A DNA stretch of 64,000 bases from Pedobacter sp. W3I1. Lineage in GTDB: Bacteria; Bacteroidota; Bacteroidia; Sphingobacteriales; Sphingobacteriaceae. The DNA lies in assembly GCF_030816015.1 (NCBI RefSeq), contig NZ_JAUSXN010000001.1:1550001-1614000 (forward strand), read 5' to 3'. Under the pieces are notes generated by a model. The model ran no database searches. It was not told where the DNA came from and saw only the letters and a program-made list of their open reading frames with translations. Both the position numbers and the translations under genes were made by a program. Below, in pieces: positions 5,850 to 64,000 of the stretch (position 1 is the stretch's first letter; every line of letters begins with the position of its first letter).

Positions 5850-7982
5850 ATGCAATTAAAAACGAATATGCATACAGTTAGCCAGCTTCCTGGCCGTCCT
5901 CATCCGCTTGGATCAACCTGGGACGGCAGTGGGACTAATTTTGCACTCTTTGCGGCGCACGCTCAAAAAGTAGAACTCTGCCTTTACGATGAGCATGGCG
6001 TTGAAGTAGCTCGGGTTGATATCGCTGAACGCGATCACCATGTTTTTCACTGTTATATTCCCGATATCGGCCCGGGGCAGTTATATGGTTATCGGGTGCA
6101 TGGCGCTTACGAACCCATGAACGGCCACAGATTTAACCCGAATAAATTACTGATTGATCCCTATGCGAGGGCAATATCGGGTGATGTGGTATGGTGTGTT
6201 GAAGTTTTTGGATATGACCTGGAGGGAGAAGAGGCTGATTTGAGTTTCTCAGAAACCGATAGTGCACCTTACATGCCCAAGTCGGTAGTGGTTGATATGA
6301 CCTATGATTGGGGAAATGATAAGCCTCTACATATTCCCTATAACCAAAGTGTTATTTACGAGCTTCATGTTAAGGGTTTTTCCAAGTTAAATCCTTTAAT
6401 TCCCGAATCTTTGCGTGGTACTTATGCAGGGTTGGCCCATCCGGCAAGTATTCAATACCTCAAATCGCTTGGCATCACCGCTGTTGAGCTGATGCCTGTA
6501 CACCAATTTGTTTCTGACGGCCATCTCATTGATAGAGGGCTGAATAATTATTGGGGATATAATACCATTGGCTTTTTTGCGCCCGAATCCAGGTATTCTT
6601 CTTCTGGTACCAATGGAAACCAGGTAAAAGAGTTTAGGGATATGGTAAAAGCCCTGCATGCTGCCGGAATAGAGGTGATTTTAGATGTAGTTTACAATCA
6701 TACTGCCGAGGGCAACGAGAAAGGTCCAACACTTTCCTTTAAGGGAATAGATAATTTAACCTATTATAGATTGGAAGAAGAAAACAAACGATATTATACA
6801 GATTATACTGGAACGGGGAACACCTTAAATTCGAGAATGCCCACCGTACTCAGGTTTATTATGGATAGCCTGAGGTTTTGGATACAGGAGATGCATGTAG
6901 ATGGATTCAGGTTCGATCTGGCTTCAACTTTGGCAAGGGGCCTGCACGATGTTGACCGGTTGGGCGCATTTTTTGATATCATCCATCAGGATCCGATCAT
7001 TTCTATGGTAAAACTAATTGCTGAACCCTGGGATTTAGGAGAAGGAGGCTATCAGATAGGTAAGTTCCCGCCAGGCTGGGCAGAATGGAATGGCAAGTAC
7101 CGCGATCTGATGCGCCGTTTTTGGAAAGGTGACCATGGAACACTCGGGCAGTTTGCCAAACGGTTTTTAGGGAGTCCTGATATTTATATGCAGGACTATA
7201 GAAGACCAACTGCCAGCATCAATTTCATTACTGCGCATGATGGTTTTACCCTTCACGATTTGGTCAGCTATAATGAGCGGCACAATATAGCAAATGGCGA
7301 TAACAATACCGACGGCGAAGCGGAGAACCATTCGTGGAACTGCGGTGTGGAGGGGCAAACGGATGATGACGCTATAAATGCGCTCCGTGCACGACAAAAA
7401 CGCAATTTTTTGGCCACATTGTTGCTTTCGCAAGGCATCCCGATGATCACCTCGGGTGATGAAATGGGAAAGACCCAAAATGGTAACAACAATGCCTATT
7501 GCCAGGACAATGAAATTTCGTGGATCAATTGGCAGAATAAAGATGAGGGACTTTTAAAGTTCACCCAGGACCTGATTAAACTCCGCCTTAAACATCCTAG
7601 TCTGCGTAGAAAGGAATGGATAGTGGGTGATAGGATCGATTCGGACGGGCTTTTGGATATTGCCTGGTTTTCGCCAAGCGGTAAAATTATGGAAACAGCC
7701 GATTGGCAAGAGGATAGCTCCGGGAGTATCGGGATTTTTCTTCATGGAGAGGGGATACAGGGTAAAGCAGAAAATGGAGAGGATATTCTTGATGTTCATT
7801 TTTTTCTCATCATTAATGCCCATCATGATGGTGTAACCTTTAAACTGCCTGCAGCGGAGTACGCACTTAATTGGTCTGTTGAGATTTCTACAGACGAAAG
7901 TATTAATCAAAAAGCACAGTTTAGGGCAGAAAGCAGTGTTGAGGTTGGAGGAAGAACGTTAATGGTACTTAGGGCAGGGTAA
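5850..7982 (+). CDS. glgX: Glycogen debranching enzyme GlgX
   Basis: This GH13 isoamylase-type enzyme hydrolyses alpha-1,6 branches of glycogen and releases linear maltodextrins. The N-terminal 150 residues form a CBM48-like module (PGRPHPLGSTWDGSGTNFALF). The GH13 regions follow: DVVYNH at 279-284, DGFRFD with the nucleophile D356, AEPWDLG with the acid/base E392, and TAHDGFTLHD with D464. At 710 residues it is full length. Two starts are possible (5850 and an ATG six codons later). In this window TreZ and TreY-MalQ act on the linear products, so GlgX probably feeds trehalose synthesis. Confidence 0.95.
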   Translation: MQLKTNMHTVSQLPGRPHPLGSTWDGSGTNFALFAAHAQKVELCLYDEHGVEVARVDIAERDHHVFHCYIPDIGPGQLYGYRVHGAYEPMNGHRFNPNKLLIDPYARAISGDVVWCVEVFGYDLEGEEADLSFSETDSAPYMPKSVVVDMTYDWGNDKPLHIPYNQSVIYELHVKGFSKLNPLIPESLRGTYAGLAHPASIQYLKSLGITAVELMPVHQFVSDGHLIDRGLNNYWGYNTIGFFAPESRYSSSGTNGNQVKEFRDMVKALHAAGIEVILDVVYNHTAEGNEKGPTLSFKGIDNLTYYRLEEENKRYYTDYTGTGNTLNSRMPTVLRFIMDSLRFWIQEMHVDGFRFDLASTLARGLHDVDRLGAFFDIIHQDPIISMVKLIAEPWDLGEGGYQIGKFPPGWAEWNGKYRDLMRRFWKGDHGTLGQFAKRFLGSPDIYMQDYRRPTASINFITAHDGFTLHDLVSYNERHNIANGDNNTDGEAENHSWNCGVEGQTDDDAINALRARQKRNFLATLLLSQGIPMITSGDEMGKTQNGNNNAYCQDNEISWINWQNKDEGLLKFTQDLIKLRLKHPSLRRKEWIVGDRIDSDGLLDIAWFSPSGKIMETADWQEDSSGSIGIFLHGEGIQGKAENGEDILDVHFFLIINAHHDGVTFKLPAAEYALNWSVEISTDESINQKAQFRAESSVEVGGRTLMVLRAG

Positions 7983-8002
7983 CTGCCCTAATACCGTAAG
8001 AT

Positions 8003-8284
8003 TTATAAAAGACCCTGAAGGCCGTTTTTCGTTGCCAAAACGGTTAAAACCTTTATTTCTCCAGGAACATCGCGGGGATCTTTCAATTGGTTGGCGCTAA
8101 AATTGCGCAGTTGTAAAATGGTTGCAGATTTTTTTAGCTGCACTACACTTTCAGCACCCATTAAAGCATGTACTTTAAGCTCGGGCTGCCTGATGAGTGT
8201 ATTCATGGATCTATTATCCAGCCCAACTGATCTTTTCATTTTTTCCATATATTCTTTTTCTATTAAAACAATAAAATCTTTCAC
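8003..8284 (-). CDS. Hypothetical protein, 93 residues
   Basis: I do not recognise this small protein. It has a charged helical N-terminus (FIVLIEKEYMEKMKRSVG) and a central LKVHALMGAESVVQLKKSATILQLRNF segment that could form strands. It has no signal peptide and no cysteine. Its stop lies 20 bases from the convergent glgX stop. Upstream, on the same strand, is the FAD/Rieske oxidoreductase with a 47-base gap, so it may be the second gene of that transcript. It is probably real, given a clean frame and no competing frame. Confidence 0.55.
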   Translation of the reverse strand: MKDFIVLIEKEYMEKMKRSVGLDNRSMNTLIRQPELKVHALMGAESVVQLKKSATILQLRNFSANQLKDPRDVPGEIKVLTVLATKNGLQGLL

Positions 8285-8331
8285 TGGTTTTAAGGTGTTT
8301 ATTTTTTTTGCTCCTTTTTGCCGATTTTATT

Positions 8332-9879
8332 TCATTTTACTGGAACGACCTCGAGGTCTTTTTGCGGTGGTCCGCTTAGCACTTTTCCTGTAATGGAAAA
8401 TCTTCCTCCATGGCAGGGGCAGTCCCAGGTTTTTTCTGTAGGATTCCAGCTCACAATACAGCCAGCGTGCGTACATACCGGATTTAAGGCGGTTACTTTT
8501 CCGGCATCATCTTTATGTAATGCCAGTTTTTCTCCATCAAATTCTACTATTTTACCCTCACCTTTTGCCAGTTCACTGGTAGATCTGATTATTTCTGCAC
8601 CAAACCGATCTGCTACAAAATGGTAAGCCACATCTGCATTTTCCTTTACAAATTCAGAAAATCCAGATATAGGTTTCAACCTTGACGGGCTCAACAATTT
8701 TTCATAGGGGTTTTCTTTTTCTAAAATAAGATCGCTGATCAGCACAGCCGAAAGACTGCCCAGTATCATGCCGTTTCCGTTAAAACCTGTTGCAATGAAA
8801 ATCCCTTTGTCGCCACCGGGTAAATGGCCAATGTAAGGAAGGCCATCAACAGGTACATAGTATTGTGATGACCAGCGGTAATCGATCTGGCTGATGTCGA
8901 AATGTTTTCTGGCATAATGTTCAAGATCTTCAAATGCCTTTAATGGGTCTCCGTGGCCGGTTTTATGGTCGGCGCCTCCAATAATCAGATATTTTTGTCC
9001 ATCAATCTCATGGCTCCTAAAATAGTGATACGGTTCCTGCATATCGTATGCCAGGCAGTTGGGGTACTCGCCGCTGTTCAGTTTTACTGCAAGCACATAA
9101 CTGCGGTAAGGTGCATTGCGTAGCGACAGGATGTTTATACCGGGAGGAATGTGCGTGGCATAAACAATGTTTTTTGCTTTTAGTGTAAATTTATCGCTCT
9201 TTGCATAATGGATGTCTTCGTGCAGCTCGGTACTATGGATAAACGTTTGTTCGATAATTTTTCCGCCCAGTTTTTCAAATTCTTTGGCCAGGCCGAGGAT
9301 GTATTTTAATGGGTGGAACTGGGCCTGGTTTTTAAAACACAGCACATGCTCAAACGGGATCGGAACTCCATTTTCAAAAGCTTCGCTCACTTCTACACCA
9401 GCAGTTTGCGATGATTCTAGAATAGACTGGAGTTCTTCTGTTTCTTTTTCGTTCTGCGAGAAAAGATAACCTTCTTTAAACTCGAAGTCTGCATCAATTT
9501 TTAATTCCTTTATGTTTGCACTGATCATTTCGATCATTTCCTTTGAGCCTTTGGCCATCAGCCTTGAGGCTTCTTTGCTGAAATCGCTATCAATTTCGGG
9601 ATAGGTGGTATCCAGAAAAGTGTTTAAGTGTGCGGTGGTGCCCCCGGTTGTACCAAAGCCGAGATTTTTTGCTTCCACCAGTAAACATTTCTTTCCCTGT
9701 TTTTGCAGCAGCAGTGCGGTCGTTATACCTGTAATTCCTCCTCCGATAATCAGCGCATCGTATACCTCCTCGTGATCAGAATAGGAAGTTACAGGATTGT
9801 CTACTGAAGCAGATTGCCAGATACTGGTATTGGCCCCATCTCTCCCATTTGTTTCTGTTCCGTTGTTTTCCATTTTCAA
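8332..9879 (-). CDS. FAD-dependent oxidoreductase with C-terminal Rieske domain
   Basis: This 515-residue fusion joins a DAO-type FAD domain to a Rieske [2Fe-2S] domain. The FAD-binding segment ALIIGGGITGITTALLLQ lies near residue 40, and the second FAD segment (GIFIATGFNGNGMILG) near 370. The Rieske motifs are C469-T-H471-x-x-C474 and C487-P-C-H490, with the extra cysteines (C474, C489) that form a disulfide in the bc1/b6f-type Rieske fold. Proteins of this layout (like Bacillus YhfW) are common but their substrates are unknown. There is no signal peptide, so it is cytoplasmic. It may be co-transcribed with the 93-residue gene downstream. Confidence 0.88.
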   Translation of the reverse strand: MKMENNGTETNGRDGANTSIWQSASVDNPVTSYSDHEEVYDALIIGGGITGITTALLLQKQGKKCLLVEAKNLGFGTTGGTTAHLNTFLDTTYPEIDSDFSKEASRLMAKGSKEMIEMISANIKELKIDADFEFKEGYLFSQNEKETEELQSILESSQTAGVEVSEAFENGVPIPFEHVLCFKNQAQFHPLKYILGLAKEFEKLGGKIIEQTFIHSTELHEDIHYAKSDKFTLKAKNIVYATHIPPGINILSLRNAPYRSYVLAVKLNSGEYPNCLAYDMQEPYHYFRSHEIDGQKYLIIGGADHKTGHGDPLKAFEDLEHYARKHFDISQIDYRWSSQYYVPVDGLPYIGHLPGGDKGIFIATGFNGNGMILGSLSAVLISDLILEKENPYEKLLSPSRLKPISGFSEFVKENADVAYHFVADRFGAEIIRSTSELAKGEGKIVEFDGEKLALHKDDAGKVTALNPVCTHAGCIVSWNPTEKTWDCPCHGGRFSITGKVLSGPPQKDLEVVPVK

Positions 9880-59624: not shown

Positions 59625-60044
59625 CTATATCAAAAATTTACTTCGAATATGTTCAGTAGGCAGCATACAACTGTCTGTTCGCCCAAATAAAGCATAGCGG
59701 TTATCGGCGAATGCTTTATACAGCCGGTTTCTTATAAAACCGGGTACCAAATAACCCACATTGATTAACGGAGCCCACCAGGCATTTAAATTTTTTAGGA
59801 TATAAGCTACTGCATTAGATTGGCTAAGAAACTCGTTGTTGCGTACCACAATAATGCTATTTAGTTTTATAAAATTAACCTGATGGACTTTGCCCAGTTG
59901 CACTGCGGTTTCACTGTCAAGCGGAGCAAAGCTAAACCTGTTTGCCTGATCATGAGTGATTATATAATTGATAAAGCCATTGCAAAAATTACAAACACCA
60001 TCAAATAGGATGATGTCTTTTGTTGTGTCTAAAATAGGTGCCAT
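59625..60044 (-). CDS. DCC-family (DUF393) thiol-disulfide oxidoreductase
   Basis: A 139-residue DCC protein. The family motif D15-G-V-C18-N-F-C21 lies at the N-terminus (IILFDGVCNFCNGFINYII), followed by FAPLDSETAVQL, SIIVVRNNEFLSQSNAVAYIL and the C-terminal RLYKAFADNRYALFGR. The fold is thioredoxin-like and the CxxC pair could do disulfide exchange. It overlaps the HTTM-like gene ahead of it by 16 bases, and is last in the four-gene unit with the small precursor-like protein at 61468. DCC proteins often lie next to or are fused with HTTM-domain membrane proteins; the joint reaction is not known. Confidence 0.9.
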   Translation of the reverse strand: MAPILDTTKDIILFDGVCNFCNGFINYIITHDQANRFSFAPLDSETAVQLGKVHQVNFIKLNSIIVVRNNEFLSQSNAVAYILKNLNAWWAPLINVGYLVPGFIRNRLYKAFADNRYALFGRTDSCMLPTEHIRSKFLI

Positions 60045-60850
60045 GTTATTTGGTGGTTAATAAAATAAATTGCTGGATAAGTAGCCATAAAAGCCCAGAA
60101 AAACGAATTCAAGCCCATAATAAGCGCTGTAAAGAAATGGAATATAAATCCCCAGATCAGAAATACTATGGCATACTGCCAGGGCAGAATAAGGCATAAT
60201 GGAAATATGGTTTCCATAACAATAACGTTCCAACACAGAAAACGGTTTGCAGAAGGGTATTTTTGCAATAAAAGACTTGCTTTTTTGGAGCCATATGTTT
60301 TGGTCGAGAATACATCTTTTATTGCTGTTCCCGAACGCCACTCAGCAGATACAAGTTTGGCAATACCCGCAACAGTATAAGAAAGACAGGCCTGTAATCC
60401 GATAAACCATATACCGATATCTCTCAATTTACCAGTTGTAAAAGCAGGAAGATTGCATAGGATCAATGTGATGATAATGAGCATGCTCATCTGGTCTGAA
60501 CCATCACTTCCATAATAAGTAACCAGTGATGCCGCCAGTAAGCTGAATCCTAACAAACTGATCAGTACCCATCCTGTTGTACTCTGTAACGGAAAGAACA
60601 ATAATCCAACAATAAGCAGGCACCTGATGATAAAAAGGGCAGCCAGGCCTGGTGCGCTAAACAGTTTAAAAAGAGGTTTAAAAAAAGACTTTTCGTTCTG
60701 TTTGGTCCATTTTAGCTGCATTACATTCCAGGATAACAAACCATTAGGAGAAAATATCTGCACTTTCTTGAGGTACTCCAGCGTAGAAATTAATAAACCT
60801 ATACTCAATATAATGAGTACGGTTTGTGATATATCATTTAATAAAATCAT
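60029..60850 (-). CDS. HTTM-like multi-pass membrane protein
   Basis: A 273-residue membrane protein with about six helices. The loop between the first helices reads GLLSWNVMQLKWTKQNEKS. The middle has LQACLSYTVAGIAKLVSAEWRSGTAIKDVF, which fits the HTTM family (distant relatives of vitamin K-dependent gamma-carboxylase): a helix with Y-x-x-AG-x-AKL, then a W-R-SG-A segment. The DCC gene overlaps it by 16 bases, and the unknown membrane protein lies eight bases ahead. The family call is from pattern, not from a search. What it modifies is not known. Confidence 0.7.
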   Translation of the reverse strand: MILLNDISQTVLIILSIGLLISTLEYLKKVQIFSPNGLLSWNVMQLKWTKQNEKSFFKPLFKLFSAPGLAALFIIRCLLIVGLLFFPLQSTTGWVLISLLGFSLLAASLVTYYGSDGSDQMSMLIIITLILCNLPAFTTGKLRDIGIWFIGLQACLSYTVAGIAKLVSAEWRSGTAIKDVFSTKTYGSKKASLLLQKYPSANRFLCWNVIVMETIFPLCLILPWQYAIVFLIWGFIFHFFTALIMGLNSFFWAFMATYPAIYFINHQITWHLF

Positions 60851-60857
60851 GACTATT

Positions 60858-61409
60858 TTATATTTGATGAAAAACGGATAATAGAATTAATGATGGCGCA
60901 GTTTCTTTTTGATAACCTGATGATTCTGCAAGCATAAACTGCCGATAGCAATTTTGTGATTGTTTTTTGTATTGGCTAACCGCATGTAATACTATGATAT
61001 AAGGCATAGAAAACATCAGTAAATTTAGGTTCCCTGCTTTTTCGCGGTAAGAAGGGATGCTTGATACCAGGCTTTGTACTACGTCTGATAATATTTTTTT
61101 ATCACGTTTTTCGGGATTCCAAAGCCATGACCATATTGTACGTTCTTCGGTAATTTCCATTTCCTGCCAATCGCTATAATCGATGTCGGTTATTTTATCC
61201 CGATACAGTAGATGGTAATCCCTTTTACCGGGGTGTGGGGCAAAGAATGTCCATAGCGGGATCAGGTTAAAATAATCAATTTTATATCTGATAAACGAGG
61301 ATATTTTGGTTTCCTTAAACTGACACAATATGGTTGCTAAAAACCAAAAGGCCAGAAAAATAGTTACTACAAGCTCGTAAATAACTACAGGGTCTAATTT
61401 CAGCATCAT
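60858..61409 (-). CDS. Unknown membrane-anchored protein in the HTTM/DCC cassette
   Basis: A 183-residue protein I do not recognise. One membrane helix lies at about 8-30 (VVIYELVVTIFLAFWFLATIL). Then comes a conserved-looking segment (YFNLIPLWTFFAPHPGKRDYHLLYRDK), a Trp-rich part (RTIWSWLWNPEKRDKKILSD) and a C-terminal helix (LLMFSMPYIIVLHAVSQYKKQSQ). It lies between the precursor-like gene (59 bases upstream) and the HTTM-like gene (eight bases downstream). By position it is a partner of the HTTM-like and DCC proteins. Confidence 0.65.
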   Translation of the reverse strand: MMLKLDPVVIYELVVTIFLAFWFLATILCQFKETKISSFIRYKIDYFNLIPLWTFFAPHPGKRDYHLLYRDKITDIDYSDWQEMEITEERTIWSWLWNPEKRDKKILSDVVQSLVSSIPSYREKAGNLNLLMFSMPYIIVLHAVSQYKKQSQNCYRQFMLAESSGYQKETAPSLILLSVFHQI

Positions 61410-61430
61410 AATTTCGAATTAGTTGAGGAA

Positions 61431-61458
61431 AAGGGGGGTAGATATACTTCCCCTCCTT
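61431..61458 (-). terminator. Hairpin between the precursor-like gene and the membrane gene
   Basis: On the minus strand AAGGAGGGG pairs with CCCCCCTT (one mismatch) over an 11-base loop and is followed by TTTTCC. It begins about ten bases after the stop of the 101-residue gene. It could be a partial terminator that lowers downstream expression relative to the small protein. Confidence 0.55.
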
Positions 61459-61467
61459 TTCAAATTG

Positions 61468-61773
61468 TTAATTGAATTTTTTACGAAGTTCGATCAGCTT
61501 ATCTAAAGACAAACCATCTTTGGCTTCTTTAGAAAGCGCGCCAATTTCAGCTTCATTTAAAGCATTAGCAGCACCGATAGCCTCAATTACCTGGGTAACT
61601 ACCGGGGTGGCTTGAATGGTTACCTTAACAGCTTGGAGCGCTGTACGGGCTATTGCAGCAATAAAAAGTGGTTCTGCTGAATTCGCTTCAACAATTTCGT
61701 TGTCGCCTTTTAAATTAGCGATTAATGCATCAAGAATTGCTAATTCTGATTTTGATAAACTTGACTTTGCCAT
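61468..61773 (-). CDS. Small precursor-like protein, 101 residues
   Basis: I do not recognise this family. Three parts can be told apart: a polar N-terminus (SSLSKSELAILDALIANLKGD), a hydrophobic, Ala/Val/Thr-rich centre (FIAAIARTALQAVKVTIQAT, then PVVTQVIEAIGAANAL), and a charged C-terminal helix (SLDKLIELRKKFN). No Cys, no signal peptide. The layout (leader-like N-terminus, hydrophobic centre) recalls peptide precursors. A hairpin follows, then genes for a membrane protein, an HTTM-like protein and a DCC oxidoreductase. A two-component system lies upstream. All this is compatible with a modified or exported small protein, but no activity is shown. Confidence 0.7.
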   Translation of the reverse strand: MAKSSLSKSELAILDALIANLKGDNEIVEANSAEPLFIAAIARTALQAVKVTIQATPVVTQVIEAIGAANALNEAEIGALSKEAKDGLSLDKLIELRKKFN

Positions 61774-62030
61774 TTTGTTTTCTTTTTGAGGTAAATAAAA
61801 AATTGTTTAGTGTGCCTTGTTTTGAAGCTTCATTTGCACAACATAAAGTTCGGTACACCATAATTTTTTTACCAGAGTGGTAATACTCATTTAAAATATT
61901 GAGTATTTCTACGTAGTTACTAGGATAAAATGGCCTTTTGGGTGTATGCTTAAAATAAGATAGATGCTGATAGAAAGGCAAAAGAATGTTTTAGCCTTGT
62001 ATTTAGCTTAAGAAAGAGGATTTGATACGG

Positions 62031-62681
62031 TTATATTACACCGTTTTTAATGGCAAACATCACCAGGCCCGCAGTATTGCGAACGCCTGTTTTTTCGATA
62101 ATGCGCATTCTGATACCTTCAACTGAACGGGGACTCAAAAAAAGTTCTGTGCCAATTTCAGTCGCAGTTTTCTCATCACAGATCATTTTTAAAACATCCA
62201 GTTCACGTTCTGAGAATTCTATATTCTGATCGAGCGAGGGCCTGGTAGAACCTTTAATTGTTAATTTTTTTAATAATGCTTTGGTTACAATATCGTTAAA
62301 GTAGTAGCCGCTTTCGTGTACCGAATAAATAGCTTTCCTGATTTCTTTAGGATCTGTATTTTTTAATAGATAGCCGTTAGCCCCGTTTTCCATTAAATGA
62401 ATAATAAATTTAACCTCATCATACATGGTTAGAACAAGAATTTTAATACTCTCAGCATATTTTTTGCGGATTAATTTCATGGCTTCCATCCCGTCCATTA
62501 CTGGCATTTTCAGGTCCATTAAAATAACGTCCGGCTGTACATCTTCGAGTTTGCATATCAGTTCTTCACCGTTTGATGCCTCAAATATTACTTCCAGATT
62601 TTTATCACGGTTAAAGCCTACCCTTAAACCGTCTCTAAAAATGCTATAATCATCTGCTATGGCTATCCTTATTTTGAGCAT
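62031..62681 (-). CDS. NarL/LuxR-type response regulator
   Basis: A 216-residue regulator. The receiver domain shows RIAIADDYSIFRDGL, the phosphoacceptor in ILMDLKMPVMDG and Lys in YLLKNTDPKE. The LuxR helix-turn-helix shows SERELDVLKMICDEKTATEIGTELF and PRSVEGIRMRIIEKTG. It is third in a unit with a membrane protein (63636 onward) and a histidine kinase (62855). It is separated from the kinase gene by 173 bases. The precursor-like gene lies 257 bases downstream on the same strand and is a possible target. Confidence 0.92.
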   Translation of the reverse strand: MLKIRIAIADDYSIFRDGLRVGFNRDKNLEVIFEASNGEELICKLEDVQPDVILMDLKMPVMDGMEAMKLIRKKYAESIKILVLTMYDEVKFIIHLMENGANGYLLKNTDPKEIRKAIYSVHESGYYFNDIVTKALLKKLTIKGSTRPSLDQNIEFSERELDVLKMICDEKTATEIGTELFLSPRSVEGIRMRIIEKTGVRNTAGLVMFAIKNGVI

Positions 62682-62854: not shown

Positions 62855-63652
62855 TTAACTAGCAGGAATGGTAATTTTAATAAAATACCGACCTCCATAC
62901 TGTGAAAAAACAAGGTCTGCTTTTAACAGGATCATTCTATTTTGAATATTTTTCAAACCTAATCCATCTTTTATAAAGCGCAATTCTTCAAATTGATTTT
63001 GTGTAAGACCATTGCCGTTATGCGAAATGGTAAATACCAAATTATGATTAACACTCACAGATTGAATATGGATAAGGCTGGCTTTTGCATGTTTGGTTAT
63101 GTTATGGATAAGCTCCTGAATGATTCTGTAAATACTGATATCGTTCCGGCTTACCTTTATGCAGTGATCGTCTGTTAAACTTAAACTGATTTCGGCAACA
63201 TTACTATGGCTGATTTTACTACAGAAGTGTGAAATGGCCTCTTTTAAACCTAATTCTTGTAAAATGGTGGAGTGGAGGTTGTGCGAAATGCCGCGGATTT
63301 TATAAATTCCGTCGTCAAGCAAACTTTTGCCTTTTTGATACATTTCCTTACTTATTTCGTCGCAACCGTTGATATCGGTTCCATAGAAATACAAGCTAGC
63401 CGACCCTAAAATTGCACCAACCTCATCGTGTAATTCTTCAGCAATACGGTGCCGCTCAATTTCCTCGCTCCTTACTGCTGCTTCGATCAACTGATTTTTT
63501 TGTATATTCTGTAAGGTTTGTAGGTTAAGTTTGTATTGAAGTTTTTTGCGCTGCATGAATATAAAAATGAGCAGTACACTGATAAATAACATAAGCATAG
63601 CAGCAATGCCAACCATTAATATCTGCATAATCTCATTATTTACCTGATTCAT
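62855..63652 (-). CDS. Membrane-bound histidine kinase (HisKA_3)
   Basis: A 265-residue kinase with one N-terminal membrane helix (residues 9-33) and no sensing domain outside the membrane. The phosphoacceptor is H75 in RIAEELHDEVGAILG. The ATPase domain has QELIHNITKHAKAS (N box) and ISHNGNGLT, in which the usual Asp of the DNGxG box is His (H211); GLGLKNIQNRM (G2 box) is normal. Its start lies 17 bases inside the end of the membrane protein gene ahead, so the two are coupled. The regulator at 62031 is its likely partner. Confidence 0.88.
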   Translation of the reverse strand: MNQVNNEIMQILMVGIAAMLMLFISVLLIFIFMQRKKLQYKLNLQTLQNIQKNQLIEAAVRSEEIERHRIAEELHDEVGAILGSASLYFYGTDINGCDEISKEMYQKGKSLLDDGIYKIRGISHNLHSTILQELGLKEAISHFCSKISHSNVAEISLSLTDDHCIKVSRNDISIYRIIQELIHNITKHAKASLIHIQSVSVNHNLVFTISHNGNGLTQNQFEELRFIKDGLGLKNIQNRMILLKADLVFSQYGGRYFIKITIPAS

Positions 63653-64000
63653 AAAATCCTTTCGCTATAAATAGGTTAAAAATGATGTAAGAGATATTGT
63701 GCACACTCCACAAGCTAATGGCAAAATTTTGAAAACGCAATGTAAGTTCGTTGTATAATAGAAAAATGAAAAAATTTAAGGTAACAAAAATGCCAAGTCC
63801 GGTGATTATCCAAAAATCGCTGTTCGTAATTTTGGTAGCCGTGCTATCGTTTATTTTGAATAAGTAATATTGAAGCGTATAGAACAAAAGAAAAATGGCC
63901 TCGGTTGAGAGCAAACGGCTGCTTAATTTCCAATAATCAAAAAAGTGTTCGTAAAAAGTAAAATTGATGATGATGAAAACCGTAAAGCAGATAGGGATAA
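63636..64000 (-). CDS. Membrane protein, partial (runs off the right edge)
   Basis: The frame stays open on the minus strand to the end of the window, so the true start is beyond 64000. The visible 120 residues hold about four hydrophobic helices (ICFTVFIIINFTFY; AIFLLFYTLQYYLF; FWIITGLGIFVTLNFFIFLLY; AISLWSVHNISYIIFNLFIA). It overlaps the histidine kinase start by 17 bases. It may be the sensor or membrane partner of the kinase, which lacks an input domain. No family is assigned. A TTG at 63914 could also start a shorter form, but homologous-looking codons continue upstream. Confidence 0.75.
   Translation of the reverse strand, partial: IPICFTVFIIINFTFYEHFFDYWKLSSRLLSTEAIFLLFYTLQYYLFKINDSTATKITNSDFWIITGLGIFVTLNFFIFLLYNELTLRFQNFAISLWSVHNISYIIFNLFIAKGFYESGK

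Follow-up and report, generated by a model that had tools for sequence, protein, structure and literature searches.

A candidate linaridin-like peptide maturation cassette with an adjoining two-component system in Pedobacter and related Bacteroidota

In a 64,000-nucleotide stretch of the genome of the soil bacterium Pedobacter sp. W3I1 (positions 1,550,001 to 1,614,000 of contig NZ_JAUSXN010000001.1, here called the window), we analysed a group of four minus-strand genes, named S, A, B and D, that lies next to genes for a two-component system. Proteins A and B resemble two proteins encoded in linaridin-type clusters of ribosomally synthesised and post-translationally modified peptides (RiPPs), and S has the appearance of a precursor. 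Judged from the sequences, the homology and layout of a linaridin-like cassette are well supported, and we consider it probable that the complete set, N-M-HK-RR and S-A-B-D, is a two-component-regulated, linaridin-like RiPP maturation system in Bacteroidota.

Gene content, order and distribution

The core of the cassette consists of the following genes:

S, 61468..61773, minus strand: 101-residue precursor-like protein with conserved N-terminal 31 residues and a conserved C-terminal tail, LSLDKLIELRKKFN; no cysteine
A, 60858..61409, minus strand: 183 residues; LinL-like, with one transmembrane segment and the motif PLWTFFAPxP
B, 60029..60850, minus strand: 273 residues; membrane protein of the HTTM superfamily, resembling the HTTM component of linaridin clusters
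D, 59625..60044, minus strand: 139 residues; DCC thiol-disulfide oxidoreductase with DGVCNFCN

The first-pass annotation of this DNA had described four minus-strand genes in tight order, and we confirmed this arrangement, with open reading frames (ORFs) at these positions and distances of 58, 7 and -16 bp for S/A, A/B and B/D, respectively. Median ratios of nonsynonymous to synonymous substitution rates (dN/dS) were low, at 0.143 for S (36 of 36 pairs usable), 0.056 for A (19 of 36), 0.050 for B (12 of 28) and 0.136 for D (10 of 28), where pairs with dS of at least 2 or a non-computable value were excluded. We therefore regard all four as coding genes under purifying selection. D belongs to PF04134 (DCC1-like; E 3.1e-24, 86.8 bits against the Pfam cut-off of 27.8). 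None of S, A and B scores above a Pfam cut-off, and at E<=1 S matches nothing in either Pfam or NCBIfam. A simple Kyte-Doolittle scan finds one segment of transmembrane strength in A, six in B and none in D or S (no signal-peptide program was run). The earlier description of A as an unknown membrane protein missed that it has recognisable relatives.

The four genes are real and conserved, but the gene set that had been delimited around them is too short: it continues upstream with RR, HK and M, and a further gene, N, lies beyond the end of the window:

RR, 62031..62681, minus strand: response regulator with receiver and LuxR-type helix-turn-helix domains (Pfam), which travels with the cassette
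HK, 62855..63652, minus strand: histidine kinase with HisKA_3 and HATPase_c domains (Pfam) and one transmembrane segment
M, 63636..64000, minus strand: 220-residue protein with multiple transmembrane segments, cut by the window end; the full gene reaches window-equivalent position 64298
N, 64321-64803 (beyond the window), upstream of M: 160 residues, with one weak hydrophobic segment

The M and HK genes overlap, and M could be a sensor or an immunity protein. We identified neither a transporter nor a protease or immunity gene within the cassette, the only part of the genome covered by this search. All 13 loci (10 from Pedobacter or Sphingobacteriaceae, 3 from Mucilaginibacter) that were found in the GTDB contig collection via close relatives of A (74-98% identity) share the order HK-RR-S-A-B-D. 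Ten of these loci adjoin obg and adk; the exceptions are the three from Mucilaginibacter. A second Pedobacter group, comprising three regions, has the cassette at a different chromosomal place. N-M-HK-RR precedes S in both Pedobacter and Mucilaginibacter, while in one genome (G051) S-A-B-D comes first and is followed by N-M-HK-RR. Lipase-like genes lie directly after D in Mucilaginibacter (L036-L038, at about 7826-9646; the one tested, in L038, matches PF01764).

Among 145 Pedobacter genomes, S is present in 17, and A, B, HK and RR are present at all 17 loci, which are short, so that D falls outside them. A is found in 7 of 151 genomes of the family, and S in six of the same seven. S thus has A and B beside it in 17 of 17 Pedobacter cases and in 6 of 6 cases from the family sample, which supports the proposed co-occurrence. 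In the seventh genome with A (G073; L110, 4139-7194), a different, 258-residue precursor-like ORF, in which two cysteines flank a hydrophobic stretch, stands before A and B, and an alpha/beta hydrolase gene stands after them. Among 198 genomes of the phylum, S matched in its own genome, in the distant genome G178 and in one region of G267; the last match (E 0.0028) was judged spurious, the region having neither A nor B. Apart from this weak match, homologues of S that spread widely without the partner genes did not turn up in the samples searched. A profile search with A matched at least 4 of 395 genomes of the phylum; at most eight first-look candidates per genome were scored, and phylum-wide absence is not claimed. 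In G408, two tandem A-B pairs follow a 412-residue ORF with a GG-type leader and a leucine-repeat-like ORF (L109, 2986-7484).

Similarity to linaridin-type clusters

Linaridin clusters, as described for corynaridin, comprise a precursor with a PxxxTP motif, an HTTM protein, an alpha/beta hydrolase and LinL, which serves as marker gene for linaridins (PMC9927463). In a tblastn search of a plasmid collection, A matched 15 actinobacterial records and a single archaeal one (E 2e-14 to 2e-4), and B matched 17 records, among them all 16 with an A match; 13 of the 17 regions were opened. Profile comparison with hhalign aligned A with its actinobacterial homologues, which are the genes in LinL position of PxxxTP RiPP clusters, at 99.85% (E 1.3e-30, 167 columns), and aligned B with the HTTM proteins of the actinobacterial clusters at 100% (E 8.7e-43, 257 columns). 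In a tree of 32 rows, B falls on the side of the linaridin HTTM proteins, opposite SdpB and the HTTM partners of DUF5819-type proteins, with support of 100/99, although the tree contains several long rows and its branching within the linaridin side is weak. The proposal that a small substrate is here followed by genes for its modification is supported by these matches of A and B, over most of their length, to genes of linaridin-type RiPPs; that S is indeed modified, we infer.

The surroundings of the matching plasmid genes vary, and several of the regions, though not all, are RiPP clusters. In S. globosus, the row consists of three small ORFs, the HTTM gene, an alpha/beta hydrolase, the A homologue, a methyltransferase and an ABC transporter. 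Other actinobacterial clusters have the HTTM protein fused to the hydrolase, or lantibiotic dehydratase genes nearby, and plasmids of Rhodococcus and Haloplanus carry A-B without the hydrolase. On a Paroceanicella plasmid, the HTTM gene has no A match beside it. PxxxTP motifs, such as PVMATP, are present in 9 of 13 annotated small ORFs read in six plasmid records, and these nine come from four of the six; the small ORFs of the Tsukamurella and NBC_00158 records all lack the motif, and the PxxxTP ORFs of S. californicus sit in the second cluster of that record. The archaeal Haloplanus plasmid has an ATP-grasp gene, the A homologue and the B homologue in succession (L145, 2768-5378).

We compared S in 19 sequences selected from those in hand, with identical or near-identical ones omitted. 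Mean pairwise identity is 0.69 over residues 1-31, 0.55 over residues 32-72, 0.44 over residues 73-86 and 0.77 over the tail (residues 87-101), and with its conserved ends and variable middle S looks like a precursor. The middle is also more hydrophobic, with a grand average of hydropathy of 1.00 versus 0.14 and -0.63 for the ends. None of the 19 sequences contains cysteine, and in the S protein of G178 both ends are kept around a longer, Ala/Gly-rich middle. One short stretch resembles the actinobacterial precursors:

S residues 52-57, TIQATP, 61603..61620, minus strand: resembles the PVMATP-type PxxxTP motif

ATP occurs near residue 55 in 18 of the 19 sequences. However, shuffling the S protein of this genome also produced ATP, in 302 of 20000 cases, so the likeness to PxxxTP is suggestive only.

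In summary of the comparison, the cassette and linaridin clusters have homologous genes in LinL position and homologous HTTM genes, in each case with a small precursor-like gene nearby, and the -ATP motif of S resembles PVMATP. They differ in that the cassette lacks a strict PxxxTP, the hydrolase, the methyltransferase, the decarboxylase and the ABC gene, has instead a DCC gene and a dedicated two-component system, encodes an S protein with a conserved charged tail, and resides in Bacteroidota. Because S has no strict PxxxTP, and a hydrolase and transporter are missing, we did not file the cassette as linaridin. Among the openly licensed papers searched, by title and abstract opening, we found no description of it; the main surveys of linaridins (Georgiou 2020; Ma and Zhang 2020) may already list LinL genes from Bacteroidota.

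Several observations speak against a linaridin-like maturation system, or against parts of it. Strict PxxxTP is found in none of the 19 S sequences and is missing from 4 of the 13 actinobacterial small ORFs, and the highly conserved tail of S would fall in the core peptide if cleavage followed the ATP motif. No alpha/beta hydrolase match was found in S, A, B, D, RR, HK or the part of M within the window, nor in the N and M homologues of L026, L038 and L111 (the own N was not scanned), and the cassette is without methyltransferase, decarboxylase and ABC transporter genes. The actinobacterial homologue of A is putatively LinL by its gene position in PxxxTP clusters, and not by comparison with a reference LinL sequence (CypL, CrdL or GrmL). 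For B, two profiles of its own class find no gamma-carboxylase in the PDB at E<=10, and the Pfam HTTM family PF05090 gives no match at E<=1, MauE alone appearing at 0.036; relatives in L046 and L067 do match PF05090. AlphaFold models of B and A (pLDDT 54 and 45) were too poor and were discarded. Finally, the dehydration of cypemycin, a linaridin, is credited to kinases and lyases (PMC10880069), which speaks against LinL and HTTM proteins as dehydrating enzymes.

Candidate control elements and a possible self-sensing circuit

Two elements flank S:

61876..61913, minus strand: inverted repeat and operator candidate, CGTAGAAATAC-N16-GTATTACCACT, beginning 140 bp before the S start codon
61428..61461, minus strand: attenuator or terminator-like hairpin between S and A, -17.5 kcal/mol

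Across related loci, the inverted repeat has the form CGTAGAAATAC-N16-GTATTTTTACG, with 2 to 6 of 22 positions mismatched, and lies 132-142 bp before S. Of the 16 regions scored, 15 have it before S with the 16-bp spacing (G051 is arranged differently). None of 200 shuffles was as good in 13 of the 16 regions and two were as good in the other three; the repeat is weak in L138-L140, with 6 of 22 mismatches and 2 of 200 shuffles as good. It also occurs before N in seven of eight regions scored (the own N region is not one of the eight), and it was not found upstream of N in L026, where 139 of 200 shuffles were as good; L027 and L035 are among the loci outside the scoring of the repeat as a whole. 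A search of the 6.4-Mb genome for the core pattern ACGTAGWRATAC gave a single hit, which lies at the S promoter, as against seven for a reversed control. Since scoring used the related sequences on which the motif itself had been built, and the shuffles were of single letters, we regard the repeat as consistent evidence but not as independent proof. RR may bind to it. A scan for sigma-70 promoters found nine, compared to a shuffle mean of 10.0, and thus no excess.

Of the 17 loci folded (L027 and L138 are among those outside this set), 16 have the hairpin, at -16.8 to -22.3 kcal/mol and z-scores of -3.8 to -6.4; the distant G178 lacks it. Its stem letters vary among loci while pairing is retained, with covariation judged by eye. 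Such a hairpin fits an output of precursor above that of the enzymes.

The arrangement also permits a reading that is compatible with a linaridin-like system, namely that matured S is the ligand of M/HK and that RR then raises S, in a quorum-sensing loop. Peptide autoinduction loops of this kind are known from agr and nisin. The overlap of M and HK, the position of N-M-HK-RR beside the cassette (before S, or after D in G051) and the repeat before both S and N are consistent with this possibility, as is the distribution of the kinase: at 50% identity or more, HK is found in 5 of 23 genomes searched, and these are the five genomes with S-A-B-D within the family, while the best HK match in the remaining 18 has E 1.9e-32 and 34% identity. 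Within the family, M-HK-RR thus travels with the cassette. On the other hand, G178, which is one of the 18, holds S-A-B-D without this HK (locus L108), the repeat has the weak and missing cases given above, and the kinase may sense something else. We consider self-sensing possible but less likely than not.

SDP systems, gamma-carboxylase and the likely chemistry

A different possibility is that A and B act like SdpA and SdpB and process S to a hydrophobic toxin, as in the SDP cannibalism system, without linaridin-type modification. In Bacillus subtilis, processing of SdpC requires SdpA and SdpB, and the yitPOM operon, which is paralogous to sdp, is regulated by DegS-DegU, a two-component system of a type similar to HK-RR (PMC6818787). 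The cassette shares with SdpABC and YitPOM a precursor-like protein with a hydrophobic centre and a membrane pair, in which B is distantly SdpB-like: it matches NCBIfam TIGR04033 (SdpB) at E 1.7e-6 and aligns with canonical SdpB at 98.3% (E 2e-14, 147 columns). However, its TIGR04033 score of 27.9 bits is far below the cut-off of 178.4, and B stands on the linaridin side of the 100/99 split. A has no SdpA match (TIGR04034, PF17418) at E<=1 in Pfam and NCBIfam, and S, which lacks an N-terminal segment of transmembrane strength, has no SdpC match in NCBIfam. We considered A as an SdpA and rejected this, as direct comparison with canonical SdpA gave 13.7% (0.6% for the actinobacterial A homologues; two control comparisons between unrelated profiles yielded 0.2% and 0.9%). 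Pfam matches to SdpI or SdpR were absent from the cassette proteins and from the N and M homologues, the rest of the genome not having been searched for SdpI, and we found no openly licensed paper on SdpC together with Bacteroidetes. The plasmid matches to A favour a linaridin-like over an SDP-like interpretation, and we think the latter unlikely.

A link between SdpA and A does exist through DUF5819-like partners of HTTM proteins, with alignments of 95.4% and 92.4%. These pairs, also from Bacteroidota, resemble A-B in that a partner with one transmembrane segment and the motif W-x-[FM]FAP is encoded directly before the HTTM gene; four of six partners scanned pass the DUF5819 cut-off. The class of B aligns with DUF5819-type HTTM proteins at 98.9% (E 1.5e-17). 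Unlike B, however, their HTTM proteins lie on the other side of the tree, and some pairs have small secreted-looking ORFs and ABC genes.

Several further loci merit mention in their own right. G347 contains a canonical-looking operon of SdpC-like, SdpA and SdpB genes in Bacteroidota (L020, 1453-3668), with matches to TIGR04032 at E 2e-16 but below the cut-off, to TIGR04034 above the cut-off, and to TIGR04033 at 174.2 of the 178.4 bits set. In L105 (69-3366), L067 (131-3479) and L088 (3-3147), small hydrophobic, possibly secreted ORFs are followed by DUF5819-like or similar genes and HTTM genes; L105 and L088 have ABC genes and L067 has a DCC gene, and we consider them candidate peptide-toxin systems.

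It could also be that no peptide pathway is involved, and that A, B and D form a membrane redox or envelope module with S as an accessory subunit. No product of the cassette was seen, and neither the DCC nor the HTTM family has a settled role. Yet A-B homologues occur in a RiPP context, and neither the variable middle of S nor the conserved hairpin after it is easily reconciled with such a module, which we believe to be quite improbable.

The first-pass annotation had also called B a distant relative of the vitamin K-dependent carboxylase (gamma-glutamyl carboxylase, GGCX). This holds through profiles of the HTTM superfamily and not through the class of B alone; a fold match that would set the 273-residue protein apart from HTTM did not appear. 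An 18-protein HTTM profile finds gamma-carboxylase as its sole relatives in the PDB (E 4.4e-9 to 4.6e-7); the SdpB profile alone gives E 0.0013 and the DUF5819-type partners 5.8e-7. The link passes through other HTTM families. A Foldseek search of B returned nothing at E<=0.001, and the gamma-carboxylase entries, at E of about 2 to 4, were not used. Six positions of B are invariant in the 18-protein alignment, namely Y158, K165, W171, G174, H238 and F250, and align with GGCX Y211, K218, W223, G226, H287 and F299, respectively (GGCX numbering derived from a chain offset of 31). In GGCX, K218 is the active base that deprotonates vitamin K hydroquinone, and W223 and F299 line the naphthoquinone pocket (PMC12589487).

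Although these Lys, Trp, His and Phe positions correspond, gamma-carboxylation of S by B is very improbable, because B, which has 273 residues against the 758 of GGCX, does not keep the Glu-binding residues: the Glu-side Asn158/Asn159/His160 (roles according to PMC12589487) align with Gly117/Ser118/Asp119 of B, in a part of the alignment that is locally less certain. By analogy, we infer that a menaquinol-assisted base acts on a peptide site other than Glu. Linaridins reportedly contain dehydrated Thr and Ser (PMC9927463). D-residues are reported as well, together with an indispensable grmL and a possible epimerase (PMC10373908). Dehydration and epimerisation are therefore the leading candidate chemistries.

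A linaridin-like system could then work as follows. S would be the precursor, its conserved ends recognised by the enzymes, and A and B, joined in a membrane complex, would modify its middle part at Ser/Thr or at backbone positions. As for the chemistry, abstraction of a proton from the peptide seems most likely, by way of the invariant Lys165 of B and, analogous to gamma-carboxylase, menaquinol; this would lead to dehydration and/or L-to-D epimerisation. D would hold the site or cofactor in a reduced state. Expression of S would be turned on by the two-component system via the inverted repeat, and the hairpin would yield more precursor than enzyme. After cleavage, the product would probably leave the cell to serve as a membrane-active bacteriocin or as a peptide signal; immunity to it is likewise presumed. 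A broader proposal, which we regard as doubtful, is that the HTTM proteins of linaridins, SDP toxins and this cassette share the menaquinol-driven strong-base site of gamma-carboxylase, that the cassette is a self-sensing modified-peptide circuit, and that its DCC protein takes the part of the human vitamin K reductase by recycling the quinone or the thiols of the site.

The exact mechanism of the linaridin HTTM protein and hydrolase is described as unclear (PMC9927463), and the role of LinL and HTTM in linaridin maturation is not established. The economy of the cassette, in which a single precursor is joined by single LinL-like, HTTM and redox proteins under a switch of their own, and without a hydrolase, would make the chemistry directly testable, and the residue correspondence between B and gamma-carboxylase singles out Lys165 for point mutation. 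If the product is a bacteriocin or signal, Pedobacter and Mucilaginibacter would possess a regulated modified-peptide system.

D may be a redox partner of A and B. Within short flanks, a DCC gene is flagged in 2 of 17 partner-HTTM loci outside the cassette (L067 and L075). It is also found in L021 (926-2879, G393), where SdpA-like, SdpB-like and DCC genes and a further ORF, which we take to be CPBP-protease-like, are consecutive. In G979 (L112, 8256-12740), the genes near a match to part of B presumably encode a peptidase-type ABC transporter and a grasp-with-spasm-like protein.

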